Of a stretch of DNA of 64,000 nucleotides, positions 3,510 through 63,609 are shown in pieces. How positions within the stretch are numbered: the stretch's first letter is position 1; each line of letters opens with the position of its first letter. The position numbers were made by a program, and so were the translations under genes. The DNA comes from Acanthopleura granulata. Its lineage: Eukaryota > Mollusca > Polyplacophora > Chitonida > Chitonidae. The stretch spans positions 18,448,572 through 18,512,571 of the forward strand of contig JABBOT010000080.1 in assembly GCA_016165875.1 (NCBI GenBank). Reading direction: 5' to 3'. A model generated the notes under the pieces. That model was given only the letters and a program-made list of their open reading frames with translations. It did no database searches and was not told where the DNA came from.

Positions 3510-5016
3510 ATGCAAGGGAAGTGATCTGCAACTAGCTTCACATATGTATTTATAATATCCAAGGAAAGTGATCTGCAACCAGCTCCATGTTTCTATTTAT
3601 ATAGTGCAATGGAAGTGATCTGCAACCAGCTTCATGTTTGTATTTATATAGTGCAAGGGAAGTGATCTGCAACCAGTTTCATGTATGTATTTATATAATG
3701 CAAGGAAAGTGATCTGCAACCAGCTCCATGTTTCTATTTATATAGTGCAATGGAAGTGATCTGCAACCAGCTTCATGTTTGTATTTATATAGTGCAAGGG
3801 AAGTGATCTGCAACCAGTTTCATGTATGTATTTATATAGTGCAAGGAAAGTGATCTGCAACCAACTTCATGTTTGTATTTATATAGTGCAAGGGAAGTGA
3901 TCTGCAACCAGCTCCATGTATGTATTTATATAGTGCAAGGAAAGTGATCTGCAACCAGCTCCATGTTTGTATTTATATAGTGCAAAGGAGGTGACCTGCA
4001 ACCAGCTTCATGTTTGTATTTATATAGTGCAAGGGAGGTGACCTGCAACCAGCTTCATGTTTTTATTTATATAGTGCAAGGGAAGTGATAAGCAACCAGT
4101 TTCATGTATGTATTTATATAGCGCAAGGAAAGTGATCTGCAACCAGCTCCATGTTTGTATTTATATAGTGCAAGGAAAGTGATCTGCAACCAGCTTCATG
4201 TTTGTATTTATATAGTGCAAGGAAAGTGATCTGCAACCAGCTCCATGTTTGTATTTATATAGTGCAAGGGAAGTGATCTGCAACCAGCTTCATGTTTGTA
4301 TTTAAACAGTGCAATGGAAGTGATCTGCAACCAGCTTCATGTTTGTATTTATATAGTGCAAGGGAGGTGATATTTATATAATGCAAGGGAAGTGATCTGC
4401 AACCAGCTCCATGTATGTATTTATAATATGCAAGGAAAGTGATCTACAACCAGCTCCATGTTTGTATTTATATAGTGCAAGGGAAGTGATCTGCAACCAG
4501 CTTCATGTTTGTATTTATATAGTGCAAGGGAGGTGATATTTATATAGTGCAAGGGAGGTGATCTGCAACCAGCTTCATGTTTGTATTTATATAGTGCAAG
4601 GGAGGTGATCTGCAACCAGTTTCATGTATGTATTTATATAGTGCAAGAAAAGTGATCTGCAACCAGCTTCATGTTTCTATTTATATAGTGCAAGGGAAGT
4701 GATCTGCTACCAGCTCCGTGTTTGTATTTATATAGTGCAAGGGAAGTGATCTGCAACCAGCTTCATGTTTGTATTTATATAGTGCAAGGAAAGTGATCTG
4801 CAACCAGCTCCATGTATGTATTTATAATATGCAAGGAAAGTGATCTGCAACCAGCTCCATGTTTGTATTTATATAGTGCAAGGGAAGTGATCTGCAACAA
4901 GCTCCATGTTTGTATTTATATAGTGCAAGGGAGGTGATATTTATATAGTGCAAGGGAAGTGATCTGCAACCAGCTTCAAGTATTTATTTATATAGTACAA
5001 TGAAAGTGATCTGAAC
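3510..5016. repeat. 47-bp minisatellite, about 30 copies
   Basis: A head-to-tail array of a 47-bp unit with the core AAGTGATCTGCAACCAGCT followed by TTTGTATTTATATAGTGCAA. Units differ by a few substitutions and some are shortened to a GGAGGTGATATTTATATAGT form. Higher-order order is visible: blocks with CTTCATGTTTG alternate with blocks with CTCCATGTATG. Minus-strand open frames here are repeat translations, not genes. Confidence 0.95.
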
Positions 5017-16569: not shown

Positions 16570-18061
16570 AATGAAAGACACGTTGAATATTTACATCTGC
16601 ACGAATCATTCCAAGGTCATGGACAGAAGCGTCTTAATTGTTAAATTTCCAAAATCCCATAAGAGCTACATAGAAATGTGTTAATTTTGACACATCTAGA
16701 AGGCCCTTGTAGTAGCAGAAAGACTATAACTGTGGCCTAATCTTAGCTGTATGAATGGTGTAATTCCTGCCAGCAAGGGTACATAGATATTGTCAGACTT
16801 ACCTTGTACAGAATGAGCCAAACAGTACTTAGTCATTGTATTCTCTTGTCAACAACACATAACAAGCACAGCTCAGTAGTAATAACATTCTGTTCACAAG
16901 AATTAGTGTGTAAAACAAAAATACGGCATGCATGTATAAACGATACTGTATTTTATGTTTCTGTGTCTTTATTTGATCGATGTTATACGACATCGGGCAA
17001 CATTGTGATGGAAGGAAACCCTGGATAGTTGAATTAAACAAGTAAGCAATTTAATCTCCAGCACGTATCAAAACAAGGTAACATAATTACTTGATGTATG
17101 GATGAAAAACGCAATGCACACACGCCATCAGTTTCACAGGTTTATTAAACTCTCGAGGAATTCACAGTGGCATGTAGTGTGGTTGACTGAAACAAATTTA
17201 GGCAATATGTAAGCCGATATTCCACAAGAAAGTACAACCTAGCAATTTACTTCAATAACATTCAAACATTTACTTCACCAATAAATCCACGCTAACACCT
17301 ATGCGGAACAAAACATGTCCATTTACGCCATCTTTACACTATGTTGTGCTACATTTTTGAACACTCAAAAGGCGAATGCAAGCCATCAAACTGTCACTCC
17401 TATAAAATGGCATGCCTGAACTCAACCGTTACTCTATACCAAGGGAGATCACTCCTACCGACAAAAATCCGTCGTGCCCCATGTGTTGTGACAGTGAACC
17501 ATGAAGTTACTATAGAGACTTGGTTTCAAATCGATTTACATCTAAACTGAGCCATGATTTTACTGTTACATTGCACCGTTTATGCATCATGGCTATAATC
17601 TACATAACGAAAAGACATTCATAGGTATTAAAGCATAAAACATACTGTTTTGTAGACATTTCAGTGGAGAAATCTCAAACATTTTCGACGGAGCGCCATT
17701 TGCATTGATCACGTGATAGCAAGGGAATTGCTACCTAAATTTAGCCGCAAATGACGTCACATGTAACCTCTCTGAAACAGGTATACATATCAAAACAAGA
17801 CGTAGAGTAAATAACGAAAGGGGATATTGAACCTACAACTAATATATCATATCCGAGCACTAAAAATAAATAAACTGACATGTACAAAATGCTCTGTGTC
17901 CAACCGTTACACTTGAGATTATCAAATGAAAGGTTTGCGAAAATAATGTTAACGTACCTGATTCAGCCAGCTGCTTTCGGTTCTCTGTTCAGAAATAATG
18001 ACATCTTTGGTCATCAGCCAAGGCTTTGTGCATCCGCTATCCGGAATGTTCGTTCTAATTT
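16570..18061. other. No supported gene
   Basis: AT-rich DNA without credible exons on either strand. Confidence 0.45.
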
Positions 18062-23510: not shown

Positions 23511-24299
23511 CATTTTTTTTTTTACCCTTGAAGATGCGCTTTTTTAGGAGGAAATTTTAGGTCATTTCCAGCGGTTAATATCGCTGTCTGACCCATCGCC
23601 GCTGCCAATCAACACAGAACAAAAAGAAAAAAAAGAGAAAACAAAGAAAGACAATCTGACCAACCGCAAGTGCCGGTAAAAACACATATACTCCCTCCAC
23701 CAATGAGGATTATGATATTTTATATCTGGTGCTTGATATTTTCTCCACGTCTTCATTTTATCCAAGTTAACCGATCAAGCAAATGAACGGAAACTCGCGT
23801 GTGGTGAGCGACGTTATCGTTTAGGGTAGCTCTGTCAATTATCACGTTGTGCTACTGGCCGTTACAAATATTATCTGCCTTTATACTGGCGGTTAGACCT
23901 TGCTGCACTGTTTTGAATGCTGTTAGAAAACCTCAAGGTTCTCACATCATTTGCGGTAACTTTAAATTAACGTCTTGATCTGTGTTTAAGTCATTATAGT
24001 TATAAGGCGGAAATTGCCTCTGTATTCGTCCGATTACTAGTGATATTATAATTGGTATCCGGAATTACATTCCCGATGGAAGATGGTTATGTATTCATAC
24101 CTTTCACAGCGAGAGTATATATTTGACATCGGTTTTGCATTCCCATTCATGGCGAGGTTATATTTCGCATTTGGATGTATATTTGTACCGTTTGTGGTGC
24201 GACTAAATTTGACATCACTGTATTCTGGGCGACTTTTACCAACAATAGCGATTTTTAAATTTAACATCATCAAACCTTGCGCCCTTGTTTCTCCAACCT
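23511..24299. other. Receptor 3' flank
   Basis: Presumed 3' UTR and intergenic DNA on the minus strand. I could not place a clear AATAAA polyadenylation signal close to the stop. Confidence 0.4.
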
Positions 24300-25555
24300 T
24301 TATGTATGGGTGGGTAGACGTGGGTGGGTTTTCTTGGAATTTACATCAGTTATTTCATCAGTGGTCATATAATCATAACCATTATCGCCAGCAATTGCTT
24401 TAATATAATTCCCTTCCTTGATTCCATTATCAGATGTCAAATTTTCTGAATTATCAAACTCAACCCTAATATATTCTTTTCTCGAATGCCATTATCAGAT
24501 GGCGAATTTCCGGTATTATCAAAACTTCCCCTAACATATTCTTCTCTGAAAGTGTTATTTGAGGCTGTGCATTCTGTCATTGGGAAATCGGCTCCCACGT
24601 TTATGTTGGTGCCAAAATGATCAGCTGCTGTGTTGTCAGAATTTGAAGTGCGTCCTTTGCTCATTCCATCATCAGTTGTCGAATTTTCCGATTTACCAAA
24701 ATTAGCTCTTACACGTTCTTCTCCAGCATTATTGTCTGTTGAGGTACATGTACTTTTTGACGTGCAATTGGCTCCTGCATTCATGTTCTGGTAATGATTT
24801 ACTCTGTTGTCAGTATCAGCTTTGACATACCCGCAGCTTTCGTCTGCGGTTGCAGTGATTAAATTTGTCATGCAAGTTTTCTCACACCCTTCAGTGTTTT
24901 CACATGCCATACAAGTTCCTAATGGAGTATTCACATGTCCTGCAGTGTTTTCACCTGTCACACAAGTTTTCACATATCCTTCCTTGTTTTCATTTGTCAT
25001 ACAAGTTTTCTCACACCCTTCAGTGTTTTCATATGCCATACAAGTTCCTAATGGAGTATTCACATGTCCTGCAGTGTTTTCACCTGTCGTACCAGTTACC
25101 ACACATCCTTCAGTGTTTTCACCTGCCATGCAAGCTTTCACATATCCTCCAGTGTTTTCACCTGTCATGCAAGTTTTCACACTGACATATTCCCCATTGT
25201 TTTCTCCTATCACACAAATTTTCACACATCCTTCATTGTTTTCACCTGCCATGCAAGTTTTCACATATCCTTCAGTGTTTTCACCTGCCATACAAGTTTT
25301 CACATATCCTTCAGTGTTTTCACCTAGTACATTGCTGGGATTTACAATCAACCCACAGGCCAAGGGTCCTGATTTAATTGGGACGTAACCGCCAACAGTC
25401 TCCGAACCTGATGGCGAAATGATGTGGTTGGCGTTTTGAAGGCCTGTGGTTTTATCGCCACGTCCTCCATCAAGCTGCAAGACAAGGTCTGTGGGCCGTA
25501 CACCACCCACCACGGCTCTGGTGCCTGGTTGCTCGGTCCTTTTCAAGTCTCCGCC
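24300..25555 (-). CDS. Receptor exon 15: repeat-built Tyr-rich cytoplasmic tail
   Basis: The exon begins after TTGTCATTTCTCACAAG at phase 0 (GGDLKRTEQPG). A GGYVPI motif follows, then eleven 13-17 residue repeats at 25324-24866 (GENTEGYVKTCMA type). After these come two copies of a ~55-residue unit (EERVRANFG... and EEYVRGSFD...) and a partial third. Read strictly, the frame ends in TGA at 24437. At about 24475-24483 the third unit shifts by one base. In the neighbouring frame the repeat continues (EYIRVEFDNSENL) and runs through GDNGYDYMTTDEITDV to TAA at 24300. With the three in exon 14, about 17 tyrosines lie in the tail. Motifs seen: repeated Y-V-K-T/A, Y-V-S-V (SHP2-like), Y-D-Y-M (YxxM, PI3K-like). 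A canonical STAT3 YxxQ is not obvious. Confidence 0.8.
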
Positions 25556-28500
25556 CTTGTGAGAAATGACAAATCATATATTATTAACATGTCCTGCGAT
25601 GAATAAAAGTGAACCTTCTTTTCTTTTAAGATAATCGAAAAAAGTGTTCTAGTAAATTACCGTCATTCCTCAACCTTTTCGCATACGAAAGAGCAATCTG
25701 TGCAATTTATGCATATTTTAAATTTTATTTTGGAGACAAAAACTACATTGGTTGAATTGCTCAATTTCAGAGTTGCACAAATAGTATAATTTTATCAGTT
25801 AACAAAGAGAAACGCCTTCAGGATATGCTTGAATAAACATCATACAATCATGTGAAAAGGTTGATGAATTACACTATTCACACTGCACAATACTAACTCT
25901 TGCTTAGAAAAAGAAAGGTTTTTTGGAAAATTAATTTGTGAGCAATTATGCAACAGTTAGCTAGCAAAAGCTGCTTCTAAGTCCTGATACTCTACTTTTA
26001 TACTGGTTTCAATCGTGGTCAAACTACTGCAATTATATAACCTGACGCTTTCGTCAAAAGGCTATTATGACAGTCCCACTGCCAGATTCAGACTCTCATC
26101 CAGCTCTCTCTTTAAGTTCCGAAGTTTGTCTGGTAACTGGCGATAGGCGTGTTTTACTCCAGGCAATTCACCAACCATAAAACTTCACCTCGACAGTACA
26201 TTTATAAGTGAAATTTCTTTTTAGAATTCTGATGTTAAATACAAATCACTTCATTTATTTCTATATCTTACTTAAGAATATTTATTTCAAAGAGGACAGT
26301 TTTATGGTTGAAGAGGGAACCGCGACGGGTCGCGCGGATTACACTATCGACCTTTGACAGGTAATTGACACACTAGCCTAAATGCAACAGAGAGATTTTC
26401 ATCCACAGACTGAGTTTAGTATTTCAGAGTCGACGATTCCTTCTTATTCTGTTTTTCTTATTCCATCTCTGTAAAAGTTGTCAAAACTGACCAGAAGTGG
26501 CCGTCATAAAATGGAGGGTACCAGACAAGATTCCATCCCCTTGGCATCACTGAACCGCGCTGCTTCGCTATTGAGCGCAGCTGTTAATGGCAGGAACGTA
26601 GCCTGTTTATCCACTCCAGGAGCGCGAATATTTTCCCCTGCCGACACTCTCCCCCGAACATTTTCCCTTACGAACAATTTCTCCTGTGGACATCCCCCTA
26701 CACCATGGACACTCCACCCTGTGGACACCCCCCTCCTCCCCATGGACATTGCCCGCTGTTGAAACTCCCCCCCCTCCTGTGAATATTTCCCCCCTTGGAC
26801 ATTTCCTCTATTAAACACAAAGCTGGAAGTGTCAACAATATTTTTGGTTCCAGTGAAATGTAGTTCATCGTAGTTTATCACTCCATACCATGCGTGACAT
26901 TGTAGTTTATCACTCCATACCATGCATATCATTGTAGTTTATCACTCCATACCATGCGTGACATTGCAGTTTATCACTCCATACCATGCGTGACATTGTA
27001 GTTTATCACTCCATACCATGCACGACATTTTTGCACAAAAACATAAAAATTAAGGCAGTTAGGCAGAAAACCTTATGTTTACATGTCATAAATATCGCAA
27101 TTGGCATATACCATCTAATCCAGTGGCTGGCAAAAATGATAAGATAATTGGCAATGTTCTATAATGCCCAAAAAGGAAATCATAATTTCGAAGATTAATT
27201 AGATAAAATGTGAGATAGATCCCAACAGTTTAAAGATACATTTACATATTCTATATGGTACAACAAAAATAAATATATAATATACAATTTAACTTTATCT
27301 TTTATCAAATAACCTGTTTTCATATACCTTAGGAGGGGAAATGTCCATAGGGGTAAACGTCCACTGGGTATATGTAACTGTCCACAGCGGGGAAATGTCT
27401 GCCCAGGGGTAGTTATCTGTAGGGGGAATGTCCAAAGGGGGAAGCTTCCATAGGGGTAATTGTCCACTGGGTAATTGCCCATAGGGCGGAAATGCCTGCC
27501 TAGGGGAAGTTATCTGTAGGGGAATGTCCATAGGGGAAGATCTCCACAAGGGTAACTGTGCACTGGGGAAAATAGCGGAGAAATGCCTGCCTAGGGGGAG
27601 TTATCTGTTATCTGCAAATCCTAAATATACAAGCCTGATATAGAAATTCTTTAAACAACAGCCAAATACATAAATAACATGGTGCTACCGTATCAAATAG
27701 GGGTGCATCCTTTGGGGCCACCAGGTCAGATTTTGGTGCAGCTATGTCTACTGGCTTGCCATTTGCATCTGGATTTCCAGGCAATGCAGTCGAATAGGAA
27801 TAGAGATACTGTATTGAAAGAAAAACAGAGTACATAGACACATGACGACGCAGCCAAGAGGAAATATAAAATTGGTTACATGTAAACGAATAAATAAACT
27901 AAATAAATCAAGTGTATGTACCAGCATAAATTAGAATATTAATACAGATTATGTGATGCGGTAAGGCGCCAGTGTGTTAATTTGTTCAGATTACGTGGTC
28001 CATTACATATCAATGTTTAGTAATGTGGGTTAGAGGATATTTCACTGAATATGTTAACAACTCCAGTGTATTTTTCTGAGATGCATAATACTATTTTTTA
28101 TTTTTCCATGCGTACACTTTGTTTTTTCGATGTTCCCATGGGTAGCAACATTTGAACACTATTTTAAGGTGTAGGAAGTTTTCGCTACAGGTACAGGCCC
28201 GGTTTGGGTACGAGGGTCTTCATGACATGGCAGCTTCCTCAGCAAACGCGCTCGGGTTTGAGTTAAGCCGTCGCTTATTTGCCTGTCATCGCTCTGTGCT
28301 TGTATCTGTTACCCTAAAGGTTGTCACAAACCCCAGTCGAAATGGAAAAGATAATTAAGCCAGAAGCAAGCCAGTGAATGTGTTGTTTCCTTTGTGTAAT
28401 GGCGGGTAAACCCCGCTTCCGAAACAATTACATGAGGATCTACCCTGAAACCAAATGGAGTTTCATAACCTCAAGACACCATTTCACGAAACCGCAAAAA

Positions 28501-31500
28501 TATGGTTCAGGTGTTGGTCGCATTAACGTAGTCTTCACTTTCGGTGCTCCAGTATGAGCTTGAATCACATGCACATATGGCCATTTGAAACTACTGGTCA
28601 AATTTGGTACCATATGCAATGAAAACATAGGTTTCAGTTTTAGGGAAGGAAGCGTCCACTGATGTAGTGAACTCCTGGATGAGAAATAAAGTTAACTGGT
28701 GGATTGAAGGACAGATTAGACCGCATAGACACGATTTCATGGCCTCGATTTTGTTGCATTTCACCGATTGCAACACACCACGACAGGAATTTAAAGGGGT
28801 GGGATTTCTTGACATAGCCTATCACCCCGATAGCTGGTGAGGTCGGCCTAATCGTTTTTAGATTCAGTCCTGTGACATACTGCGTTGACACCAGTCAAGG
28901 CTAAGGAAAGAGACCGTGTCTGTAGCAGAGTGTGGGCAAAGTATGTACCCATGCCACCCTTTTGGAGAGTGTTCAAAGGTGCGAGAACAAAGTAGTGCCC
29001 CTTCTTTGGCCATGCGTTTTTAAAGTGAAAGACCGCTCACGACTGAGGCACTGACCATTAAAAAGATTACAAAATTGTCTCTTGAATGCAAAAAAGTTTT
29101 TGAATTTGTATGAATTCGTTGCTGAATTATCTTCGTTTGAAGTGTGGAGTATTGTGCTGCCGACTGGGGATCTGAAGGCGCCCATGCTTTTAAGCTTATG
29201 AGAGATTGACCAGTCATAGAGCTTGGAGTTAGCAGCTGTTTATAAGCTGTGATGTAAATGTTCTGAGTTGACTGTCAATGTAACATGTAATAGCATAGGG
29301 ACAGTACACTATTAACGTTATATATTTTAATTATAACAAGTACATGAGTGAACAACAAACTATTTCCAGGCGATTGTGTTATGGCGTTAGTAAGCTTCTT
29401 GATCATTCCATGTTATAAATTTACATATATGCATAAGTTTCAACCGCAACCCTGGCAGTTTACTACAGTATCAGGTGACAAGAGTGTCCCTCGATTGGAA
29501 CATTTACGTCACAGTTCACAAAGAATGGCCGCATTTCATGCTAGTCGACGGAGCGCGGTTCAATGCCAATATCCACTGTTGTTGTAGCTGTAAGAAAAAA
29601 TGCTTTACTGAAATTAACATAATATTGTCCAACCTGTTTGGCAAATTTAACTGTGAACTTGCATTGTCTTTCACTTTAAGTTCGCAAAGCTCGAGGTTAT
29701 ATAGTAGAGTTGTGATGTCATGGGGCCAACCGAGCTCGCCCTGGTCCCTTTTCGAAAGGTTAAATATGGTACATATGAGTACCAAGTTTCCTGTGTCGCT
29801 TGTTAAATGTCTTGTGTTACGTGAGTACCTTGCTCTTTGTCTTGTCTTACACACGCATGGTCAGGCTCGTTACATGTCTTGTGTTACATGTGGTTAGCCG
29901 TGCCATTTATCTTGTTACAATGATTAGCCTTGTCCTCTTGTCATGCATCTTTAGCATGATTTCGTTAGCCAACTGTTTGATTACATACATCCATTATTGG
30001 GCTTGCCAACTGTTTTCTGTTACATACGATTAGGCGACCAAGAGTCTCACGTCCCATATTACTGGCCCTGCCAGTTTTCTTTTGTAACATATGATTAGAC
30101 TCGCTAGAAGACTTGTGCTACGTATGATTAGTCTTGCCATATGTCTTGTGTTATACATTTTCATTTATTTATTTGATTGGTATTTAACGCCATACTCCAG
30201 AATATTTCACTAATACGACGGTGGATAGCATTGTGGTGAGAAGAAACCGTGCTTTGTGTTATATATGATTGAGTTTGCTACGTGTCTTATCCACACGTAC
30301 AGTTAGGAACGTCTTGTCATGTTACATAAGACTAACTAGGCTTGGTATGTCTTGTATAACATTTGTACGTCTTACCAAATCCGTCACTTCCTCAGGAATC
30401 TGACAAGCGAAGTCGTCTCTTGTCTTCTGCTTTATTAGTCTGAAATTTAATTTTTTAAGGTGTTAGTATCAGAAAAAACAAAAGAATCGCTCATGATGCG
30501 ATAGAAAGAGAAAACTTGCGAAATCTTAACAACTCTCACCGTTTGCCCATACTGAACACACTTGTCTACGCATACATGTTACTTCCATTTCGGGACAATA
30601 AGAAATGTTTCACCCCGAAAACTAAAACCTCATCGGTTCTGAAGGTTTTCGCAATCAAATGTTCCAGCAGCCACACAGACTTGATATATTTACCCTAATT
30701 CATCAACCTTTTCAACCACCGCTGAAAGCAATATTTCAGTATTTTCTTGGGGATCTGTAGGGTTTAGAGAAATAGATCGTACAGCTTTAAGAATCTCATA
30801 CCTATGGCAACACAAATCATTTTCGGTTATATTTTTTAAAATACCTCTATATGCGTAAAGTACCCTTTAAAAATTCCTTCAGTGATTGGCAAGATTGAAG
30901 GTATACAGATGTTGCTCAGTCTTTGAAGACACCATATTTATTTCTTCATTCATTTGGTCAGTGCTTAACGCCATTAGCAAGCTATCAGCCAGAGAACCAC
31001 TGGCGTCGCTTTGAGGACATCCACCAATAAACCCACATACGACGTTTCATTGCATTTAACTCAGTATTTTTGAAGATATAATGAGAACAAATCCAAAATG
31101 ACCTGTGACCTACAGTATGCAGAACAAATATGTCAGTCCCACTGAGCACAATGTACTTGGAAAATCTGCAACTGATACCACGAAGTTCCATTTAATATAG
31201 TTCAGTTTTGGACCTTTCCGCTGAACTGCGACATGACATGTAGGCAAAAGGTTATACAGGTACACACATGCGCGGACTGTTCTATAATTCACAATTCATT
31301 CAACAGCAGGGTGCCAAACACAGCTGCAGTTGTGTACAATTGCATGTGCATACCTGCAACATATGACCAGGCCGTACGATGAGAAACACAACAAAAAAAT
31401 GCCCGCTATGACAATACCGACAATGTCTCCTGCTGTCAAAGTACCTGAAATGAAAGATCGAAACTATTGTAATACAGCAAACGGAAGAGAAATATATCCT

Positions 31501-34500
31501 AAAACACAATTAAGCGCATACTGCCTTTGTTGAGACGGTCTCTCTCACATTTTACACGAACACACCCATCTCATTTCTCTTTATAAGGAATTCCGGTCAA
31601 AAGTCAGATTATATGCTCACTTAAATTTGTTTTGATATCTCAGATTATCACAGTTGATAGTTAAACGCTGAGGTGAGGTACATATAAGAACGCTAGATAA
31701 ATCACATCTCAGGTTAAAACACATCAAGACATAAACCACACCTGAGATTGAAACACATCAAGATATAAACCACAAATACAAAAACAACACAAGTTATAAA
31801 CACATCAGACAAAACCAACATCACAGGACATGACACGCATCACAAGATAAAACATGCCACAAGAAAGAACACAAGATGGGATAAAACACACCGCCAGTTG
31901 AAACACACCATAAATTCCTGCCAAATCCCAATGGTGGTTTTACTTAGTAAGTACATTTTAATCAGGCCTAATGCAAGTAAAATGCACAAAATACGTGTGC
32001 ACCAGTCCTCAGGTAGTTAATTCATACGTACGGCTGACAGTTATTGTCTCCCAGTGTGTCAATGGGCCTGTTCTGTTATCATCAAGAACAGCTTGCACTG
32101 CGACAGCATACTGCTTACCAGCCTCTACATTTTTCAGCTCGACACTGGAACCGTTAGAATCGACTGTTCTCGAACCTGCAATTTCATTCCATCAAAAGCA
32201 TATTACTCTGACTAGCAGAGTTAAATGAGGTAACAATAACTTGACTACACCTGTCTAAGCATAGGTCCACCAGCCTACCACTCCAGCTGTACGTGGCAAG
32301 GTCTGCCATCAATCTGCAGATGGTCATGGCCATCCCCCGAGCTCTGCCAGGTTTCCTCATACCATAATGCTGGCCACCGTTATATACGTGAAATATTCTT
32401 GAGTACAGCGTAAAAAACCAATCAAATAAATAAAATAAATAAATACTTGCCTACCCATATGAGCAAATCAACTGCATCTACTAGTTAGATGTAACATCTA
32501 CACATCTACTAAACAATCCACCACATATCCGCATATTCTGTCAGTCAACCCATCACCACATATTATCTGACAAGCCATCCATGCCTTTACACATATCTAT
32601 TCATACACCTAAATAGCTATCTGACAACTCATTCGTACATCTGCACATCTATTTGACCAATCTCATCCCATCCATCCACTTCACTACCTATCCGTTTTAA
32701 ACCTGTCATTCTATCCACTCACAAAAATACCACTCATTCTATTCACTCATTTGACTTGTACAAGTCTGCCAGTCATCCTATCCACCCACACGGCTATACC
32801 CATCCGCACAAATCCACCACGTCCCATCCTTCCATTTAGCTACCCATCCGAATAAAATCTGTCACATACTTTCATTTGAGTACTCATCCGTACAAATCTA
32901 CCACTGATTGACCCACATGAAAAAAATCTCACACCCATCCTATTCACCCATTCAACTATTCATCTGACTCCACAAGCATGACAAATGCCACTGTTCATCC
33001 ATCCATCAACCCTTCTTCTTAAACGCCCAGGTATGTGGAACCACTCTGCAACATAAAAGACTAGAGCAAAGAGAGCAAAGCCAGAGCAGCGACGACAGTG
33101 TGATAGTTGGGTAATGGTCACTTGCGCTGAAGGCAAAACCCGGCCTCTTGTCAATTTAGCTCAGTTAGAATCTTACTCTAACTGTTCATTTAAGTGTTTA
33201 GAAGTAACAAAAAACACACACCATAGCACCATGGTTTAAGTAGAATTAGATAAAAAAAAACTAGAGCCTGTAGGCACTGAAATGTATTCTGATGATTGCT
33301 CAGGCTTCTGGCATGTAGATAATTCTGTTTCCTGGCCTTTGTTTATGATCAAGACACTATTGTAAGTAAATATCATGTAATACACTATGCTAAGCTTGAT
33401 AAACTTTTTCTTGACATTCCCAACATAATGTTGAAGTAACTTCGACTATGAAATGTGATACAGTGTCCATTTTTCGTCTTCTGGCTTCTGACGCGTTTAA
33501 AACAAGTTTAAACCTAAACTTACATTTAGATCTGTATTGTTTATGGCGGGTACACATGGGTATGGATCTGTATTATTCCAGAATATGACATCTTCGTTCT
33601 AATTCCTTGAAAAATGATTTAAGTCGTTTGACATAACCGCTTGGTACTGGTAGTGCTCGTCAAGTAAAAGCCAGTCTTAGCTCCGGTCTGTCGATCTGAA
33701 ATCGGGTCTGGGTGTTGGTGAAAAACGGCAATAATAAGTATTAATCCAAATCCACTACTTCTAAACTGCTACTGATCTTCTATATTCAGCGAGTGAAGCA
33801 ATGTTTATTGAGTATGGTATCTCTGAGATAGAGAGATGCACAAGCGGGCTTCGATGATGCTTTTCCAAGGTGGCGGCCTATTATCAAGCAGGCGTGCGGC
33901 TCGTGAAGACCGAAAGCAGCACAAAAACGAAACGAAAACGATCACACCTGTAATACTGTGTTATTAGCGTGAAGATGACGATAAGACACTTAACATTTTA
34001 TTTTATAGATATATACGGATAAAGATTTGTCCTGTTTTTGGTTATTCTTTGGTCAGCGCCTTTCGGTTTGAGTGTTGGAAATTGTGATGACTATATAACG
34101 CATTACTATGCATTCGCAAAGAATACATAAAAAAATTGCACTGATGTTAAATGTGCTGGTCTAGAATTACTGAAAATACTGTACACAATAACATATTCAT
34201 TCACACATCTAGTGTGGTATTCTTCTCAATCAAACAAACCTTTGCAGAGTTGTTGTTGTGAAGGTTGCTGGACGGAGGTTTCGCAGTACAACACACGGTA
34301 TTTCCTGACAATAGGATGTGGCTCTTCACATCCCCTGGGGGTCCACTCCACCATCAAAGTCTGTTCCTCTGTCTTCTTCAACCTGAGCCCCCGTGGTGCT
34401 TTTAAGTCTGTTGGATAAACAGCCTAGTAAGAACTCGAGCACTAATTCCGTTGAAAGGCAATAATGAAGAATAGCACCCTTATGCATATGTGTGCCTAAA

Positions 34501-37500
34501 ATTAGATTCTACAGAAACTGACAAACCTTAGTTTCCTCATATCAAGGTTGGGATGCTTAAAACAGTATTTTTTTGCTTGTCTCAAGTAGCCTGGTCTCCT
34601 CTGTGGCCACAAGGTTAGAGTACTAGCACAGAACAAAGAATCCGGAGCCCCGTACCAGTGCTGTCATTCTAACTGTCTCCGGCTGAACTTCAATCAAATA
34701 AATGAATAAATCGAAACAGCCAAGCGCTAGTCGTAGTATTTAAGTGCACGTGTATGTCTGGTACTAGTAGTCAACACTACTCTGGCCTCTGGATGATAGA
34801 ATGATCTTGCGACGATCGTAGAATTTAGACTCCGCCATCTTGCTCGGGCTACATGTGTAACAGCAACTAGAACTTCATTGCTGACATGTAAACATTTTGG
34901 AAAAGGTCATACAGTGCCTCCAGCTTTTCCCAGAATAATATACATGTATGCTGCCCTTGTTTTGACGTGGACACAACTTACAAAAACTCTCTCTAAAATT
35001 TCTCTGGATTACAAAAAAGTCATCAAACAGGGCATATTCAACATAAAAGGCATATCGTTGAGGAAGTTGGGCTTTCCTAATTAATCTAAAAAGATAAAGT
35101 AGGTGGTGGCCATCCGGAGCCTGTATAAACGTATGAGAAGGGGGTCATGCGTGTAGTGATTTGCATTAAACATCGTAGGCTACGTGACCCTCGAGGCATT
35201 AGCGTGTGGAAACCCTTTTTCCGTATTTTGATGTTTCCCACCAGTCCATAAAACCATTTAAAGGTCATTAAGGTCACTAGCTCTTGCTCTTGGTGTGCCA
35301 GTTTCTACAAAACCGTATAAACATGTGGTAGGTACCCAAGTCTACATAAATCAAGGTAAGTATACCTGCACGTTTGGTGAACACACAGGGACTCCGTAGA
35401 ATGCCAGAGGAATATTGTGAGAAATCCGCGGATAATCCAACCATCAAGTCGTTGGCCAACCTCCAGAATTCCTCTTCTGTAAATCTGAAAGTGTGCGAGT
35501 AGGCCGAAGGAGGTAAACGTTCCCACTTAATTTGGTCCTACCAACAAAAACAGACACCAGAACTCTTAGTACCATTGGCTAAATTGATAAACACGGAAAG
35601 GGCTTGACTGGCTCAGTCGTTTAAATAAGCTCTTCCTAGTCTGTCACAGATTTTAAGTCAACAATGGTTGGCCATTAAGCCTACTCAACCGACCACATAA
35701 GGGAAAACATCTTGAAGGCAGTGTGACATACGAGCGGCTGTTTATTTTTTTATGTGTATATTAATGTTGTTTAACAATTCTCAAGAATTTTTATAACGGT
35801 GGAATGTATTTAGGGTGCTAAAATATGTAAGCATTAATGCCTGTATTATAAAGAAAAAGCACTTGTATGCTGCAAGCCCATCCGACAAATAGGTATTTAA
35901 CATGTTTAAGATTAAGTAAAAGATCAGGGTAAAACTACAACAAGTAGTTAGTCCAGGCCTGTAGCCAAATTGTTTTCACTTCCAGTCTAAGTGCAGCGGC
36001 CGCTACATGTGGCGGGGTTATCGTAGACGGGTCCAAGCTCTTGTTAATGCCCCAGTTTAAATGAAAGAAATTCTGCCCAACAGGGTACTACGCATTTCCC
36101 TGGCAATGGCGACTAAGGTCCAAGTATAAGAGATCAAGCATATTGCTCCCAACTCGCCATTGCAAAAACAGGAATGGACAACAGACTGCACATGTTTGAC
36201 TCGTCCGACAAGGCTACATTTACCGGAGACACTGCACGCACAGATGCATGGTGGTCAGCGCGGCTATGGGCCTACACGTAGGATAAACAGACACAAAACA
36301 ACTTTCCTCATTATTAATGATCTTGCCGAAAGATACAATTCAATCAATACACAATTTTACCTAAAAGTCATAGATCAGCAGTCCATCCCTGTTGAATCAT
36401 TGAAGCGTATTTACCTTACATAGGAATACAGATCTGCTTTTATCCCCAGATTGGCAGTAATAAACCGTGAAGTTTTCAACATCCTGGTTATCTCGGGCAA
36501 ATTTTGGCCACTCCATAGTTACGACAAACAAATCGTTATCCATTTCAGCGACCAGGTCAAAAGTTCCGTAAGTACCTAAATTAAAATAAGCATTTTCAGA
36601 TAATTTCACATTTTCAAATATCTCTGCAATCAAATCCTTAAATATAATATAATATACTGACTCGGTTGGTTGTATTCCTTATCAGTGATTAAATATCATA
36701 CGGTCGTACCTACCATGCCTACAGTGTTTCTGTATCATTGCAGAGCTTGAACCATATTCAACACAGTCATTATTGCCAGAAAAGTATAATGTAAGAAACA
36801 TTACATTTCACCCAAAAGGTGTAGCATTGTTATTTTCCAATTTTGTTTGATGTTTAATTATTTTTTTTATTATTTGAATGCGAATTTTTGCTTCATTGGA
36901 GGCAACCATATATAGGGGGATTTCGCGAGCTGCCTAATGTCAATTGGGCATTTTACTACACTCTAGTAATGTGTGTCGAGTCGAATTTACATCAGTATAA
37001 GTGTTATTTCCATATAAGGTCGGCCTAATGACTTCTGTGGAAAGAGACATGACCACTTGATAGAGCTCGCATGAAATGGCCTATTAAGAAATGAGGTTAA
37101 TGAGGAATTTGTCGCAAAAATATTTTAATACATATTTCAAGAGAGTTATGTCACAGATTTCTGCTGGTATGTTTTTTGGTTGCACTATTAAGCTATACTT
37201 TACTTATATGTTTAAGTAGTAAGGTTGCAAATTTGAGAGAAACTCAGCAGGGCCTGGGGAAAATCGTTCTACCATGCAGGTACCAGGGCCCATGCACTCG
37301 AACAAAGCTCTCGTAACTTTACAAGCACGTGGCTTACATGGCGACGCAATGCCTACAGCATGGCCGTCATGGTAGTTACGTGCTCGTAACGTTAAGAGGG
37401 CTTCGTTCAAATGGGCCCAGGTGAGTATTCCTGCACTTAGCTCTAATCCCAATTAAAGGCCCATTGGCAACCTCTTGGCTCTTGGCATGATTGGTTTGCA

Positions 37501-40500
37501 CAGACGAAGGACAACCCAATTGGCATTGGCCTGCGTATATAGTGAAAAAAGGAAGCAACTTAATTTGACATGAGGGGATGGTCAGAAAAGATTGCATGGG
37601 CTAGCATATACAGTCACAAAGAATTACAGTCCCTTCACTACGGGCGGACGCACTTACATTATGCTATAATGCAATAAAACATATCATTAGGCAGGAGTTA
37701 TATGCATGAAGCCAGAAAGGCAGGTAACCAAATTGGACATGAGCTAGTACATACTTCACTTAGTCCTAATAACTGGACAAGAATTGACCTAAAACTTCAC
37801 TCAAAAATGTACATTTTAACAGACAAATACATGTCACTAAATATTATTTATGGTGTTCGAACTTACATATTCCAAGTATAGGATATCACCCTACCTTCCA
37901 AGCAAACCTCAAAACACCCTTCTACAATGCATAAAACTCTCAGAATCAGGAAAAATGAGCCACTTAGTCATGAACAAAGTTTTAGGTCTTTTAAGGTATA
38001 TAGCATTAAACATAAATGATTGCAAAGTTGACCAGAACTATACAGACCAGAATATCGTCACGCACACTTCCAACCTTGGTAGACGTGGGCTGGTATTTTT
38101 ACACGCGTCACAAAGAAATACCCAATCATTGAACAATTCAATTACAATCGGAAATTGAGGGATCGTTGGAATCAACTTAGGTCCACTTACCTTCAGAAGT
38201 GGAGGGGCCAATTGTCAAATTGGCATGAGAGCGAGAGAATCCAATTTCTGATTGACCACACAATGTCAGGTTGTACTCCACTCCGCAGTCCAGACGTAAT
38301 ATTAAAGAGGTGTCATTCCATTCTGGTTGTTCTACCTCGAAATCCTTGTCTGGGGGACAAACACGATACCGAATATTGCGCGCATTTCTCAGAGCCTTAT
38401 CAATTGGCTGCAAAACATGAAACAAGACAAAACTAATATCTAAAGGTGGGAATGTTTCGATTATTGTTCATAGAAATTTCCAAACATCTGATTTCTCACC
38501 AAGCTAACAGGTGATGGCCGCCGCCTAAAGCTGCGGTTTTAAGTAAGAATTGTTAGGCGCTTTGGTTTCCTCTGTCCATAAACCTGACCACGTAAGTGAG
38601 AAATTCTTCAGTGTGGCGTTGTCATCAAATGAATCTATCAGGTAAATAAACAAAATTACTTGCATCAGTTACATTTGAGTGCGTAGTCATTTTTAATGAT
38701 GGTTATTATCTCCCTTGGATCTGAAACGCTTATCCTCTTTTGTTTCTTACTCTTAACCAAAATGCCTCCAGAAATTCTTTTGAATGAAAATTAATTCTCG
38801 ACCCCCATCTCAACAGCTGCACATCAAGGCAACAGACTTCCAGAGCATTGTAAGGCAGTTCATTACGAAAAGGCCTACATGTGTCTAAAATGTTAGAAGG
38901 ATGAATGGATCGAATTTGAAATAATAAAAAGTGTTTTGCACCTGAAAATACACAATGACATCACGGGCATTGTTGTCAGAACATGATTCCTGCCAGAACC
39001 CTCCTAGAGTGACACCTGGGGGACCGGCTGGGACTTCGAGGAGAAAAAATTAACATATTATGAGTAGATAATTAAACCGGCTTTCTTAAGGAGTGGATTT
39101 ACATTAGGACAAGCCCACAGTAACAGGTGCCTGAAAACATCCCTTTGTTGGAAGTGGAATGACCCAAGTGAACTTTGTCCACTACTATATGACATGGAAA
39201 AAAATTGTCATACAGTTTTGTCCAAAGGGGTGCTTTCAAAAATGTCAGGTACCTATCTGCAGGCTTGACAGGGCAATGGGGACTTGGGTTCAAGCTGAAC
39301 TGACCGCTTGCCATGAATAAGTAGACGTATTTCGTTACCCCACAGAACGCCATAGCAAAGGCAAGTCTAGAATGAACAACATTCGCCAAAGGCTTCCCAC
39401 TAGAAAGGCGGATTTATCTTATCATCGTTTTGTTTCACGGAAAAATGAATGCCCAGTACCATTCTCGGGATACTTACCATCCGGAAGTGTGGTCTGCTGG
39501 AGGGAAATAGCATTACTGACGTACTGATGTTTTCCATACGGCATACAAGTTATCGACATAGTGTATGTTGTGTATGGAGTGAGGTTCGTAAAAGTCTGGT
39601 CCAGCGACGTAGAATTTCGGATCTTAATGCGGACAAATAGAAACAAAGCACTGATGAAAGACACCCGCCGACAAGAAGAAAAAATAATGCAACTATCGCG
39701 TTGAAATCACGAAACAACCAGCACATGTTAGCTGTAGCCACGACATTCGCAGGAAGTGAATGTCACCTTTAAAATGAACGGTCCATCTTAAAAGATTAAA
39801 TTAAGATTGGACCGATAGACAGCCACACAAAATAATTTACCGACTTATAGAGTTGACGCTAACAGCTTTGAGGGCCACAGAGTCGATGCTGATTGGCTGA
39901 CAGTGGAGACACGGTTTGCTGGGTTAAGCCTTGCAGCTTTGTTCACGTTGAATAAATTTGCTCCACCTGAAATTTAGCTTATGTTAGGCATATCCTGGAC
40001 TTGCACATCTTTCACACCAGCCAATTAGAATCGATTCTTTATCCCTTTAAACCCTCTTCCCACAAACTACTACATGTATATCAAGTCAAAATCAGATCAG
40101 TGAATATGTTAACACAGACCAAAACCCCTGTTAAAAGGGATAATTGAAAAGATGACCTCATGGAGAGTAATACCAGAGCAGCGACAATAATGCAATAGTT
40201 GGCATATGGTCACAGGTTACCGGTGAAGTCAGACCTCTTGTCGTTTACATTTACAAAAGTCAGGGTCGTCCTCTAACAGTTCATGCAAATGCTTAAATAG
40301 TAGCAAATAATGAACCCCTCCCCCACCCACCAACAGCTTGGATTTAAACAAAATTAAGTACAACAAAAATAGTCGTTAACAACGTTATGTTTTAGTATAT
40401 TGTTTTCTTTGTTGATATCGGATAAAATTATTCATTCCTCAAATAAGACACACTGCCATCTCCGTAGGCCTTATCCTTCACATCGGCAGTTTTGGTAGAA

Positions 40501-43500
40501 ATCTAGAAATGTACAGGCGTTACTTTACTTGCGGCCCTCCGAATTCGGTTACGAAAAAACCTGACCACGGTCGCAACAGAGAAAATGAGATATGAAACAC
40601 CCACTAATAATTAATAAATCAAATTTAAACAGAAAGTATAAATTATAGGCGATCAATCACAAGTTGAGGAAGAGAACGATGAATTAAATCACAAACAGAG
40701 TGATAGCATGTTCAGGCATATAAAGAAACCAAAGGGCTATTACCTCGTGGGTCGAACCTCCTTCTAGTTGAAATATATACAACAACTTGTAATCAGTTTC
40801 AGCGCTATTATTCTCTGAGATCTTCAGTGTTCTGCTAGAGGGACTTTTCAACACTAGGCCTTCCTTTCGGACAGGAGCTGGCTTAACTATAAGATAAAAC
40901 ATCATCACAGTAAGCGTGTAGTGCAGACAGTATGAGAGTAGGTGTGTGTTACTGACTGTAAGGCAGACAACATCCGAGTACTTGTGTAGTACTGACTATA
41001 CTATAAGGCAGACGATATCAGAGTAAGTGTGCAGTACTGACTACAAGGCAGACAATATAAGAGTAAGTGTGTAGTACTTACTATAAGGCAGACAACATCA
41101 GAGTAAGTGTGTAGTACTGGTTATACTATTAAGCACACAATATCAGAGTAAGTGTGTAGTACTGACTATAAGGTAGACAATATCAGAGTGTGTGTAGTAT
41201 TGACTATAAGTTGTGTAGTATTGACTATAAGGCAGACAATATCAGAGTGTGTGTAGTATTGACTATAAATCAGACAATATCAGAGTGTGTGTTGTACTGA
41301 CTATAAGGTGTGTAGTACTGACTATAAGGCAGGCAATATCAGAGTGTGTGTAATATAATGATATCATTGTTTGACTCGCACCTTGTGAAATTGCTGACGT
41401 CAACACATGTAATGCTTTGTGTTTGTGTGGTTAAACAAATAGATAGAAAATCTTAAATAGATTAGTAAACAGTTGGTTCATGTTACACCGTCTGTTTGAT
41501 TCTGTTAAATATTCGAATATTACATGTAGAAGAGGCTGTGTGGAAAACACATCAGAGTAAGTGTGCAGTGCAGTCTGTCAGGCAAACGCAACATCGAAGT
41601 TACGTGTTAGAATCCAGCTCCCGTTGCTTCGACTTGGGCTTCAGTTCAGGAGATTTGTCAGCTAGCTTAATTGTATCCCACCGTATACATACTCTTTACA
41701 GTGCATGGGTATGTGTAGGGTGGAAAGAAAAACTTTCCATACCACCCGGACAGAAGGGGATTGTTGGGTAGTATATACATGTCGAAGTAACATATGCTAT
41801 AGCTACTCTGGCTGCTCTCAACGTAATACATCTTGCTATATGTAATACCAACGACAGTTATACGGTTATAACATTGCAGATATTCTTGAGCACGGCGTAA
41901 AACACCAATCAAATAAATAAATAAATAATACTGCAGAGAAGTGAAGAATATACGCCTTTCCTATATACCCTTAGAAGCACGTATGTCCTTCACAGTCTTT
42001 CATTACCTATTTCAGAGGTGTGAAAACGTTCCGTGTAATAAACTTGCTTTTCCGTTCCAACAAGCCAAAGTCTGTATTGTGCATTGACTTTGAACGTATT
42101 TCCTGTATTTCCATCGTTGTGTCTCCATTCGCAGGAAGTGGCAGTGCTGTGTGGACAACGGTAAAGGTTCGGGCTATAACGGAGAGAAAAAAAGCACAAC
42201 AAATATATGGACTAACTTGAATGATCTCTAGGCTTTACTGATCTTGAGGAAATTGATTATAGGCATGGTTTTTCAGGATGCTTATTATTTATTGATTAAT
42301 TCATTTGTAACGCCACGCTCAAGAAATTTTCACTCACACAAGTGAACTATAGTTCACTATAGTTCTCGGAGTGAATTATCTACCTGTAACGAATTACTGG
42401 CGGCCTCTTCCACGTATGACATATGTCACAGTGTTTGATGAGGCATTACCACTCTGCATTTGACTTCATGCGAGACCATACTACTGAATTAGTTGAGGAA
42501 TTTGACGTAGTGATGTTGAGCACCGACTATCTTGTCCTTATAGCTCGTTAGCTGAGAGGTGAGAAACATTGGAGAGTTGGAGGAAGGTGAGGGCACCGAT
42601 AAATCTCTGTATGAAGTTTCAGTAACATTAGTTCAGTAGTTTTGGAGACAAATCTTTACAAGACTTAATCACATATAAGCTCTGACCTGAGAAGGCGGGC
42701 AAAGGTCATTTGCACTGACCATGATGACTACATACTGATATTTTCCGGGAGGGCTACATTCAATTCATGTCTGAAGATTCATTGGATTTATCATGGTAGT
42801 TTTTTAAATACGTGTCTTCAAAAATCACTGATGGGGTACTACGTGGTTCAGTTGTTTAGCGCGCTAAATGACCCAGGAGCCTCTTACCAATGCTGTCGCT
42901 GTGAGTTCAAGTCCACCTCATGGTAGCTTCCTCTCCAACTGTGTGTAGAAAGGTCTGCCACTAACTTGCGGATGTTCGTGGATTTCCCCCAGGCTCTGCC
43001 CGGTTTCCTCCCACAATAATGCTGGCCACCGTCGTATAAGTGAAGTATACTTTAGTACGTTGTAAAACACCAATCAAATAAATAAAAAAATCGAAGAAAG
43101 TGGGCAAAAAGTCATTTGCGCAATACACACGCTCTAATGGAGTCGCCATGCAGTGAACCCTGTATAAATACTAAGCTTTATTAAATTTGGCTCAGTAATT
43201 TTCGAGATACATGTGAAGCTTCACAAGTCAGACATGAATTATAAAGATCGCAAAGATTACAAAGGTCATTTGTATTGACCTCACTCTATACACATATCGT
43301 TATGTCAAGTTTCACTGAACTTGATCCTGGACTGTTGCGAGATATAATGCTCATCCAACCAGATATGAATTCTGACCGCAAGAAAGTATGTCCAATGCAC
43401 ATGTAGATAAAATATGGCGAGACGGCTACGTTGTTCATTTTCCATAGGATTTCTACTGCATTCAAGGTATAAATTTCAGTGAAGTCAATGAAGTTAACTG

Positions 43501-46500
43501 CTCAAACCTGCTTAAGTTGCGACAAAGTTTTGTGGTAAAGTAGTAAAGTATATTGCTCCGGCTATGTAAGAGAACAATGGCTTTCGATTCAACTTCCAAT
43601 TGAGTAGTAACTGCGTGGGAAATCATAATCTAGGCATTCCGTGACGATTAAACCCATGAACCTGGGACGTGGACACATGCCTGACTACTGAACACCTTTT
43701 CGGGACGGACCTTAAACCGGAAGTACGTGCCTCTGATTCTTTATCAACATTTACAACAATAGCAGAGAATGGATAATGCACTGCATTTATGCACAATAAA
43801 TATATCTCCAGCACAAAGTACCAAATACTACTGTGGCCTTGGATAACTCCATTACTTCATTAAGAAATTTAAATAATGGAATAAACTATAGGCTACGTAT
43901 CATACATTACAGATTTGAGTTCCCGCAGAACGTACATGTTGAATCAAACACCCTACTGGCGTACCTCTGCTTTATGCGTTACACTTGTAGGTCCATTCAG
44001 ACATTAACAATTAAGCTATATAGGTTTAATCACTTACCCAGTTATTCTCCAGACTACAGATATATTGGCATTTTCTGGCAGATTTACCAGGTTCCAGTCA
44101 CAGCGCATCCTTTCCCAGTTATAAACTGTACAGTTCAGTGGCTCTGCAAGCAGGAAATTTTCAACGCTCAAAACATTTTCCATCTTATTCCGAGCTATTA
44201 CGATTCCATTATGTCTGAGCTTTAGACAAAGAAAGTTGTACTTATATCTTTTTTTTGTTTTCAGGACGACTACTAGTGTAACGAGGAGAAAAAGAAAATG
44301 CTCATTCTAAAAGTAAGTTTTTCAACTCTGAGTAGACTTTTAGCGGATACGTTGAAGTTTTAGACCGATTATCGGTTAAAATTGATTATTTTTCTGTTGT
44401 TAATTCACATCAGTGTGTACTTGGTACATCCAAATAATGTGTAGGCCTATAGGCCTAGTACACCACAATGTTATCCATTACATCACCATGGTGAGTGCCC
44501 ACAATAATGTGTACTATGTTGTTACATCCCAACGTAGTGAAATGTGCTTTACTACAACCATGTATACCCGTTACATCACAGCTTAGTGTACCTGATCATG
44601 TTACATCCCAAGGATGTTTACCTGCTTAACCACAGGCTGACATGTATCTTGTTAACCGCACTGAAAGGATACCTATGGAGAAATATATCTGACAAGCTCG
44701 TTACATGTCTAGCTTTCAAGGTTATATTACACTCACTTGGGTCGACACGGACAGTTACGCTGCCAATGAGGCTGTCTCCGGGCAGAAGTCGACAACTGTA
44801 CACACCTTTATCCTTCTGTGTCACCTTGTCCTTAAACAAAGTAGAGCTTCTCTGTGCCTCCGCTTCCACGTGTTTGGCAACATCCTGCTCACCACGTCTG
44901 AACACGAAAGTATTATTTTTTGTGAGGTTTTCTTTATCTCTCACCGAACATGTCAGATTAAGCTTTTCTCCTTCGTATAACTGAAGTGTGCTGTTCTCGA
45001 TCTGCCTGTTATTATATGAAAGCTCACCATTTTTCAGTTCTGTAATGTAAGAAATTGAACAACATGAATAGTTAAACTTACAGTACAGAAATCAAGACGC
45101 AAACACATGTACAAATCTGTGAATTTTTAAGGCAAAATTCAAAATGGCCACCAATCCACATGACCTGTAAAAAATCGCAATGTGACGTAAAGTAATTTAC
45201 ACAAATGCTCACAATTATTGCTGCCAAGTTGGCCTTTTTCTGCACACGGCATTTTCAGATATATTTGAAGTAAAAAAGTGATAATAATTATAATTACTAC
45301 TACTACTAAGAATAATTGTAGCTGTTATCCCACAGCCTTGGCTGGGTCCACGCTATTACCCATGTATCATTTCTGGTATTCTCATGTTGACTTCTTAGTA
45401 ATAAAAAAGAGAAAACAAAGGGATAAAACTGAACAGGGGTATTTTGGATTTGAACTCATGATTGTCATATATCACATACAATGGGCCTGGGACTAAAAAC
45501 CAGTTTAGAGACAATTCAGCTCTGATCTATTGCCTACAGCCCATAAACAAAGACAGAAATAAGGAATACATTTCTGCAAGGTTTATTCCCGTGGTAAACT
45601 GCTATAATTGGTTTCATGTTGTCTTTCTTTCACATTATAAGAACTTATTGATAAACCTTCAAAAGCCCCTCTACTTTGAATGATCGTATTAATGTTACAT
45701 TAACTGACAAACTAATTGCTGTGAATGTTCCAAATGTAACCATCAGTGATCATTTTCCGGTGTGCATTAGTTGGAAATCAGCTCATTTAAGTTGATTTCA
45801 GACTTAATTAATACACCTTTGTGTAATTCTGAACAAATGGAAGATCCAAATGTTGCAGTGGAAGGATGGCTAGAAAATTTTCAGACTATTCTCAGTTTAC
45901 ACGCCCTTTTAAAAGATAGCATCTATTATGCATCAACGAGATTTCGGTAAACAACAAAAGAATAAGGAAAGCTGCAAATACTGGAAAAATAAGGTTAATA
46001 GAAAAATTATTACAGCAAAAAAAAAAGGACGTACTAAATTCTGAAATAAACAAAGAAGAGTAAATAAAGAAGTCCTCATGATATTTGGAAAATCTTACAG
46101 GTTATAAATCTGAAGAGATCAGTCTCTTTTAAAATCAAATTATAACTGAAGATAAAGTAACCGATGATCCAGAACAGAGTATCAACTTATTTAAGGACTT
46201 CTTGGAAAATTATACCTGGAGTATTCCTCTATCTAGACGTTCCACAGCCATGACAGTAAAACCACACCTTACCAAACCAAAATGTATTATATTTATTTAT
46301 TTATTTGATTGGTGTTATACGCCGTACTCAAGAATATTTCACACTTACGACGGCGGCCAGTATTATGGTGGGAGGAAACCGGGCAGAACCCGGGGGATAC
46401 CCACGACCATACGCAGGTTACTGGCAGACCTTTCTCCCTGGAGAGGAAGCCAGCATGAACTGGACTTGAACTCACAGCGACCGCATTGGTGGGAGGCTTG

Positions 46501-49116: not shown

Positions 49117-49162
49117 TTTACATCCTCACGACTCATCGGGGGTGCTGCATGGTTTACCGTGA

Positions 49163-50957: not shown

Positions 50958-51068
50958 TTGACATGCATATACATAAAGTTAGAGAAGGAAGTACATATAA
51001 AAATCTCCATATTTCAACAAAATTGTGACTTTCAGCTCACGTATTGTTACCACACAGACACACACACA

Positions 51069-51078
51069 GATATATATA

Positions 51079-51147
<69 letters not shown>
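51069..51147. repeat. (AT)n microsatellite
   Basis: About 35 uninterrupted TA dinucleotides after a short CA run (51050-51068); near-certain length polymorphism. Confidence 0.97.
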
Positions 51148-51148
<1 letters not shown>

Positions 51149-51460
51149 CCCACTGGCTACAAGCCTAAATCTATGTATTCTGGGAAAACAAGTATATATT
51201 AATCTTACAGGAAGCACATTTAATGTGGTCTTTGTGCATACTTATCATTAGGATAAGGCCACCACTCACTTATCCCAGAATACTGTTCTCTTTGACTCCT
51301 GTCGAAAACCAGGCATGAAGTTTACTTCATGCACAACCTGTAATGGTGTCACAATCGTTTGTTTGTCAGTATAAATACACGTATATTATGACTGTACAAC
51401 TGTGTCCAGTGTATTCACAAGAAAGAATTGTATCCAGGCATACATGCCATATACCTTTAC

Positions 51461-57800: not shown

Positions 57801-57806
57801 CTGTCG

Positions 57807-63600: not shown

Positions 63601-63609
63601 AGTAAATCG

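Follow-up and report, generated by a model that had tools for sequence, protein, structure and literature searches.

The analysed window, a 64-kb stretch of the Acanthopleura granulata genome (contig C83, positions 18448572-18512571), carries on its minus strand a receptor gene, referred to here as the C83 receptor. Our model of this gene has 16 exons and 15 joins and forms a single open frame of 1101 codons from a methionine to the only stop, at the end; the exons encode, in order, a signal peptide, an Ig domain, five FN3-type domains (ten exons), a transmembrane segment, two juxtamembrane or tail portions, and the last part of the tail. The model was built by splice-site and frame analysis, with no gene finder, and with several exon boundaries chosen by eye. 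A search of the genome with the ectodomain identified a second receptor on contig C58 and, on contig C7, a single exon of a third receptor, and tblastn on C58 and C7 DNA recovered most exons of both; no Ig or signal exon of the C58 receptor was found in the 60 kb examined.

Exon 1 (49023..49116), which contains the ATG and the signal peptide (MKAFLVLLLGYRLVLAGIPG...) and ends in a phase 1 donor, was obtained by scanning 45060-64000 on the minus strand for a methionine with a hydrophobic start and a phase-1 donor; two candidates were found, and the one selected has the better donor of the two and an in-frame join. The Ig-domain exon (44737..45039; all exons listed here are on the minus strand) is supported by a Pfam ig match (E 4.4e-6) as well as by splice sites and frame. 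The first cytokine-receptor domain is encoded by exons at 44038..44143, which includes a C-x9-C-x-W pattern, and 42007..42173 (ends picked by eye), both supported by splice sites, frame, and their C58 and C7 relatives; the exons of the second domain, at 40744..40886 (ends by eye) and 39478..39622 (without a canonical WSXWS), and those of FN3-type domain 1, at 38942..39033 (ends by eye) and 38191..38407, were placed by splice sites, frame, and relatives. FN3-type domain 2 comprises exons at 36415..36575, the start of which is kept in the C58 receptor, and 35366..35537 (ends by eye), both ends of which are kept there. With regard to FN3 domain 3, which is spanned by the best Pfam fn3 stretch, the acceptor of the first exon (34240..34407) was altered to fit the frame, the first join with another acceptor not being open; the second exon lies at 32032..32175. 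The transmembrane exon (TLTAGDIVGIVIAGIFLLCFSSYGLVICCR; 31354..31444) has 19 of 31 residues identical to its C58 paralogue and is followed by a juxtamembrane exon (30376..30439) with a possible JAK box 1 (FACQIPEEVTDL; FSVQLPPVVEEL in C58); these two exons, along with the second exon of FN3-type domain 2, share both splice positions with C58. A 120-nt tail exon (27689..27808) with phase 0-0 and a weak donor could be skipped without a change of frame. The last tail exon as assembled (24437..25555) is open for 372 codons plus the stop, in phase with the transmembrane exon, and its part upstream of the repeat array described below (25325..25555) contains Tyr786 in the context ETVGGYVPIK, which corresponds to ETVGGYSRFK in C58.

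Membrane topology as drawn here follows from the predicted signal peptide and transmembrane segment. Pfam searches with the whole protein identified fn3 in two stretches (9.8e-15) and ig (4.4e-6), with cytokine-receptor models below cutoff (IL6Ra-bind, E 0.073); FN3-type domains without a Pfam stretch of their own were assigned by position, signature residues, and relatives. Among 31 PDB matches at E up to 1, the best was to fibronectin (1fnf, 7.5e-5), and a weak match to gp130 (1bqu, E 0.033) covered residues 99-275. Class I receptors have been defined by C-X(9-10)-C-X-W and W-X(26-32)-C-X(10-15)-C patterns (PMC1963337). The first cytokine-receptor domain of the C83 receptor contains the former, as C-x9-C-x-W, the second cysteine pair is out of range of the latter, with spacings of 24 and 7, and WSXWS is absent from the second cytokine-receptor domain. 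WSXWS has been traced to the vertebrate-urochordate ancestor (PMC1963337), and its absence from a protostome receptor may thus be expected. Downstream of the transmembrane segment, the putative box 1 region was read by eye as IPEEV in the C83 receptor and LPPVV in the C58 receptor. Like gp130 and Domeless, the C83 receptor combines an Ig domain, a two-domain cytokine module, three further FN3-type domains, a single transmembrane segment, and a long tyrosine-bearing tail with the C-x9-C-x-W pattern; unlike them, it has no canonical WSXWS, a shorter second cysteine spacing, no YXXQ in the tail, and a tandem coding array in that tail. The Ig, cytokine-module, FN3, and transmembrane order of the gene model thus places this receptor near gp130/Domeless, with two sequence hallmarks of the class missing. 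YXXQ, described as the type of STAT site found in Domeless (PMC2914635), occurs neither in the array, nor in the C83 tail outside it, nor in the C7 tail exon. Searches with the C83 tail sequence gave no match to a solved structure (E up to 1) or to a Pfam family above the cutoff.

The last tail exon contains a coding minisatellite of 11 units (24866..25324, minus strand; TRF and unit alignment), which corresponds to residues 807-959 and is built on a 13-amino-acid unit; in the one haploid assembly covered, eight units are 39 nt long, one is 45 nt, and two are 51 nt. A sequence-only reading of this DNA had proposed an array of 11 in-frame units at this position, which proved exact to the base, with all unit lengths multiples of three (11/11) and a core that varies among Tyr, Cys, and His; we found Tyr in five units (four GYV and one EYV), Cys in four, and His in two. 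Its placement of the array in the cytoplasmic tail of a gp130/Domeless-like receptor is likewise supported by the gene model, in which the array falls in the tail exon. With tandem units in an exon that is coding by the gene model and an intact frame, the array fits the definition of a coding minisatellite; in the remaining two frames of the coding strand, the units contain 14 and 18 stops. TRF reported periods of 39 and 129 bp, the highest score being 559; when the exon was randomised 300 times under a first-order Markov model, a single array with a period of at least 20 arose, and it scored 58. The stop-to-stop frame of the exon is 378 aa long, as compared to a longest ORF of 221 aa across 30 Markov randomisations of the window, even if this frame is kept open partly by the repeat itself; a random ORF was rejected on this comparison. 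We also rejected the occurrence of the array elsewhere in the genome, as its DNA was placed only once in 606 Mb (606,523,666 bases in 87 contigs) by a search that passes over simple repeats and very common words. Seven splice-donor-like AGGTGAAA sites are present at unit starts between 24956 and 25325.

Downstream of the array, the tail (24437..24865, minus strand; TRF) contains older, diverged repeats with motifs such as CGYVKAD, EERVRAN, and EEYVRGS. An older 65-bp repeat located just past the array (24424-24547) is not a multiple of three in length and breaks the frame: two copies are in frame, a third is in another frame, and the protein as assembled ends at 24437. The third copy together with the open stretch that follows it (24300..24482, same strand, read in the other frame) includes KEYIRVE, GNYIKAI, and GYDYMTT. 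The distribution of the older repeat over two frames (24300-24547) could represent either a real truncation of the tail or an assembly error. Strong protein constraint on the 65-bp copies was considered and dropped; three pairs of copies gave ratios of 0.58, 0.41, and 1.49, which overlap the range obtained in wrong frames (0.31-1.26) and therefore support no conclusion on constraint.

The tail upstream of the array can be compared with the C58 receptor. pN/pS between the C83 and C58 receptors was 0.49 in six gap-free segments chosen by hand and 0.55 in a 38-residue stretch of the tail upstream of the array; 20 of these 38 residues, including ETVGGY, are identical, and the similarity reaches the first unit. 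Direct comparison of the tail DNAs showed 68% identity over 116 nt (E 1e-10); when the tail was searched against the genome with E up to 1, C58 (E 0.48) was among 17 matches, which also included the tail's own exon and its own downstream repeat. As the conserved stretch ends at the first unit, the tyrosine kept by both receptors is Tyr786, which lies outside the array. Its C58 counterpart, GGYSRFK, does not fit the motif discussed below. No 39-bp array is present at the homologous place in C58, which reads CERTDGDRF there. The C58 and C7 tail exons lie approximately 15 kb and 8 kb, respectively, downstream of the last receptor exon recognised by tblastn, on the same strand, and were assigned by position, with joins unphased. 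The C58 tail frame stops early (L025 6039), and beyond this stop a 0.8-kb repeat element, 86% identical to 17090-17916 of the window, has been inserted, followed by a 45-bp array (DANSYRTTDGLTTDP; L025 4233-4869 of G000:C58, minus strand). In this second array, Tyr is present in 10 of 13 comparable units and is the lowest-entropy codon of the 15; pN/pS is 1.17 (0.95 and 0.65 in wrong frames), and the array is free of stops and changes register once, between units 2 and 3, with the repeat remaining stop-free in 6-24% of neutral simulation runs. A stretch of the C83 window (24143..24216, minus strand) matches the C58 45-bp array weakly (63.5% identity over 74 aligned nt, E 0.007, under generous scoring). 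Sequences of the second exon of FN3 domain 3 and, in part, of the transmembrane exon occur twice in the C58 receptor (L027 5607-7083), perhaps reflecting an internal duplication.

The third receptor contributes a tail exon that is free of tandem repeats (C7:8632823-8631525, L034, minus strand; assigned by position); TRF on 1.8 kb around it reported just a short AT-rich repeat outside the exon. Its sites GYIKF, GYIPH, GYMPI, and GYLRR share a recurrent GY[IML][KPR] pattern. Six of its 11 tyrosines fit Y[VIML][KPR] (0.40 expected; 0 of 20000 shuffles) and five fit [GN]Y[VIML][KPR] (0.06 expected; 0 of 20000 shuffles), both of these patterns having been widened after the C7 tail was known. The pattern fixed beforehand, [GEN]Y[VI][KRP], occurs twice in this exon as compared to 0.03 expected (p 0.0006), and the shortened form Y[VI][KRP] occurs three times as compared to 0.18 expected (p 0.0011). 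In the C83 tail outside the array, three of seven tyrosines fit Y[VIML][KPR] (0.19 expected, p 5.5e-4), a test that is not independent because the pattern was drawn from the C83 tail. The G-Y-V-K of the array unit is thus a tyrosine context common to the sister receptor on C7, an observation in favour of docking as the role of the motif from which the array was seeded. At least three gp130/Domeless-like receptors are represented in this genome; two of these carry a recurrent tyrosine context other than YXXQ, which is open to tests of STAT binding.

The units themselves have changed in a pattern that looks close to neutral. Between-unit pN/pS is 1.04, a noisy ratio given that the five wrong frames range from 0.40 to 1.47, and the 26 distinct between-unit changes comprise 6 synonymous and 20 other changes, where 22-26% synonymous would be expected without selection. 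The Tyr codon is off consensus in six of the 11 units, which ties it with codon 13 as the most often changed of the 13 codons, and it ranks third in variability by per-codon entropy; codons 2 and 3 (Glu-Asn) are unchanged across units. The full motif is intact in units 1, 2, 5, and 9 (4/11). Recent copying has involved both kinds of unit, as a single position out of 39 separates Tyr units 1 and 2, and the Tyr-less pairs 7-8 and 10-11 differ at 2 of 90; the idea that the newest copies are all Tyr-less was dropped, since units 1-2 are equally recent. Unit counts are small and copying homogenises units; selection on the tyrosine is neither demonstrated nor excluded by these data. The unit length and two indel types are all multiples of three, which would occur by chance about once in 27 times if these were independent and is weak evidence, and the array stayed stop-free in 7-25% of neutral simulation runs, so that absence of stops is weak evidence for translation. 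The sequence-only reading had further suggested a tunable array in which, if Tyr is phosphorylated, the number of docking sites would follow copy number. This is not supported: Tyr is present in 5/11 units and the full motif in 4/11, the changes look neutral, the Tyr codon is among the least conserved, and the C58 tail has no such array. With Tyr gone from 6/11 units, a signalling dial is a possibility.

We consider it moderately probable that a coding minisatellite multiplied a docking-like motif in this tail and that the array is now drifting, chiefly as a disordered spacer that carries four to five candidate sites. Under this hypothesis, the array would have grown by tandem duplication, through slippage or unequal exchange, from a single [GN]-Y-[VIML]-[KPR] motif, in a tail that tolerates changes in length because it is presumably disordered; given its absence from the C58 paralogue, the array was either gained in the C83 receptor or lost in C58. 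The units would then drift near-neutrally, with an open frame as the one main constraint, and the array would act as a spacer of variable length in which the four to five surviving candidate SH2-docking tyrosines are redundant with those outside the array. As in related receptors, a JAK bound near the membrane would phosphorylate tail tyrosines, on which STAT or another SH2 protein would dock. Transcription, JAK binding, phosphorylation, SH2 binding, and disorder are predicted; an AlphaFold prediction for the tail alone from a single sequence gave a mean pLDDT of 29.8, which fits disorder and is not evidence for it. As a counterpoint to drift, the four units with the full motif, along with similar sites outside the array, may indicate that the tyrosine matters more than these small tests show.

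A selected array, in which each Tyr unit is phosphorylated and bound by a STAT or another SH2 protein, so that signal strength or avidity depends on copy number, would account for several of the same observations, including the match of the unit GYVK to the context that is enriched among the C7 tail-exon tyrosines, the persistence of units 1, 2, 5, and 9 with units 1 and 2 as a recent copy, and the intact frame in 11/11 units; copy number is known to alter SH2 avidity in CagA (PMC4623810), and the different 45-bp repeat beside the C58 receptor has Tyr as its best-conserved codon (10/13 units). However, Tyr has been lost from 6/11 units by what we read as at least four separate changes, pN/pS is neutral and the Tyr codon is off consensus as often as any other, a further recent duplication has copied a His unit together with a Cys unit, and the C58 repeat, with its pN/pS of 1.17, sits beyond a stop and a repeat-element insert. 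We see selection for docking-site number as a possible but unlikely explanation. A somewhat more doubtful proposal is that receptor tails of this animal repeatedly breed tandem tyrosine repeats (the 39-bp GYVK repeat in the C83 receptor, the different 45-bp SYRTT repeat beside the C58 receptor), each of which would enlarge the stock of docking tyrosines, and that signalling output evolves by copy number; if so, the drift to Cys and His would represent turnover of a fast-evolving docking array rather than decay.

Decay itself could take the form of a protein that terminates sooner, or of splicing that bypasses the array, such that the repeat drifts effectively untranslated. The frame break downstream in the C83 gene, the weak donor before the last exon, the early stop in the C58 tail with the 0.8-kb repeat element beyond it, the neutral between-unit changes, and the 7-25% of neutral runs that leave the array stop-free are all compatible with this. 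By contrast, the part of the tail before the array shows pN/pS of 0.55 against C58, the exon stays open over 372 codons in the phase of the transmembrane exon whereas the other unit frames contain 14 and 18 stops, and the tyrosine context is found both in and outside the array, which makes loss of translation improbable in our assessment. An erroneous copy number or downstream frame break introduced by assembly seems very improbable; the A. granulata assembly combines Nanopore R9.4 and Illumina reads in MaSuRCA (PMC7850002), and the frame break does fall between similar repeats, but an array of 459 nt with many point differences among units is not something an assembler would invent, and this explanation suits the frame break better than the array. 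Hardly any weight is given to the array acting in splicing, as a set of alternative donors, instead of in the protein. While the seven AGGTGAAA sites resemble donors, the donor-like motif follows from the coding repeat itself, and no downstream acceptor or exon was identified, albeit without a systematic search.

Among known systems, p130Cas resembles the array in that its YxxP substrate domain is a disordered region with numerous tyrosine sites of similar sequence, and differs in that it is not a cytokine receptor and is not known to have a near-identical DNA minisatellite. The EPIYA-C segment of Helicobacter pylori CagA, the copy number of which changes SHP2 binding, is likewise a repeated disordered segment with a tyrosine motif (PMC4623810); unlike the chiton receptor, CagA is a bacterial effector for which phosphorylation has been demonstrated, and 6/11 of the chiton units have no Tyr. 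A CagA-like docking array would have the motif in most units, as compared to Tyr in 5/11 and the full motif in 4/11 here. Approximately 1 in 20 human proteins has been estimated to contain copy-number polymorphic coding repeats, with an excess of unit lengths divisible by three (PMC1273636); the chiton unit differs from these in holding a tyrosine context that a sister receptor also has. Molluscan IL6R-like receptors have also been reported, with no chiton named in the part of that report drawn on here (PMC13203501). Among the papers listed by literature searches, no title or abstract opening described a tandem tyrosine array in a cytokine-receptor tail. If minisatellite turnover makes and loses tail tyrosines, repeat number could be a route by which the strength of receptor signalling evolves and varies from one individual to another, as is known for one bacterial effector; even on a neutral reading, the C83 receptor provides an example of a docking-like motif copied in bulk within a receptor tail.

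Tandem repeats are abundant across the C83 receptor locus. At least five minisatellites lie in introns of the gene (48843-48952, 40923-41356, 31697-31823, 27386-27608, and 26866-27029), and a large 47-bp minisatellite of about 30 copies is located outside it, at 3498-4938. Broken open frames at 55100-56735 resemble, by eye, a Ty3/gypsy-type retroelement, with RNase H and integrase words.
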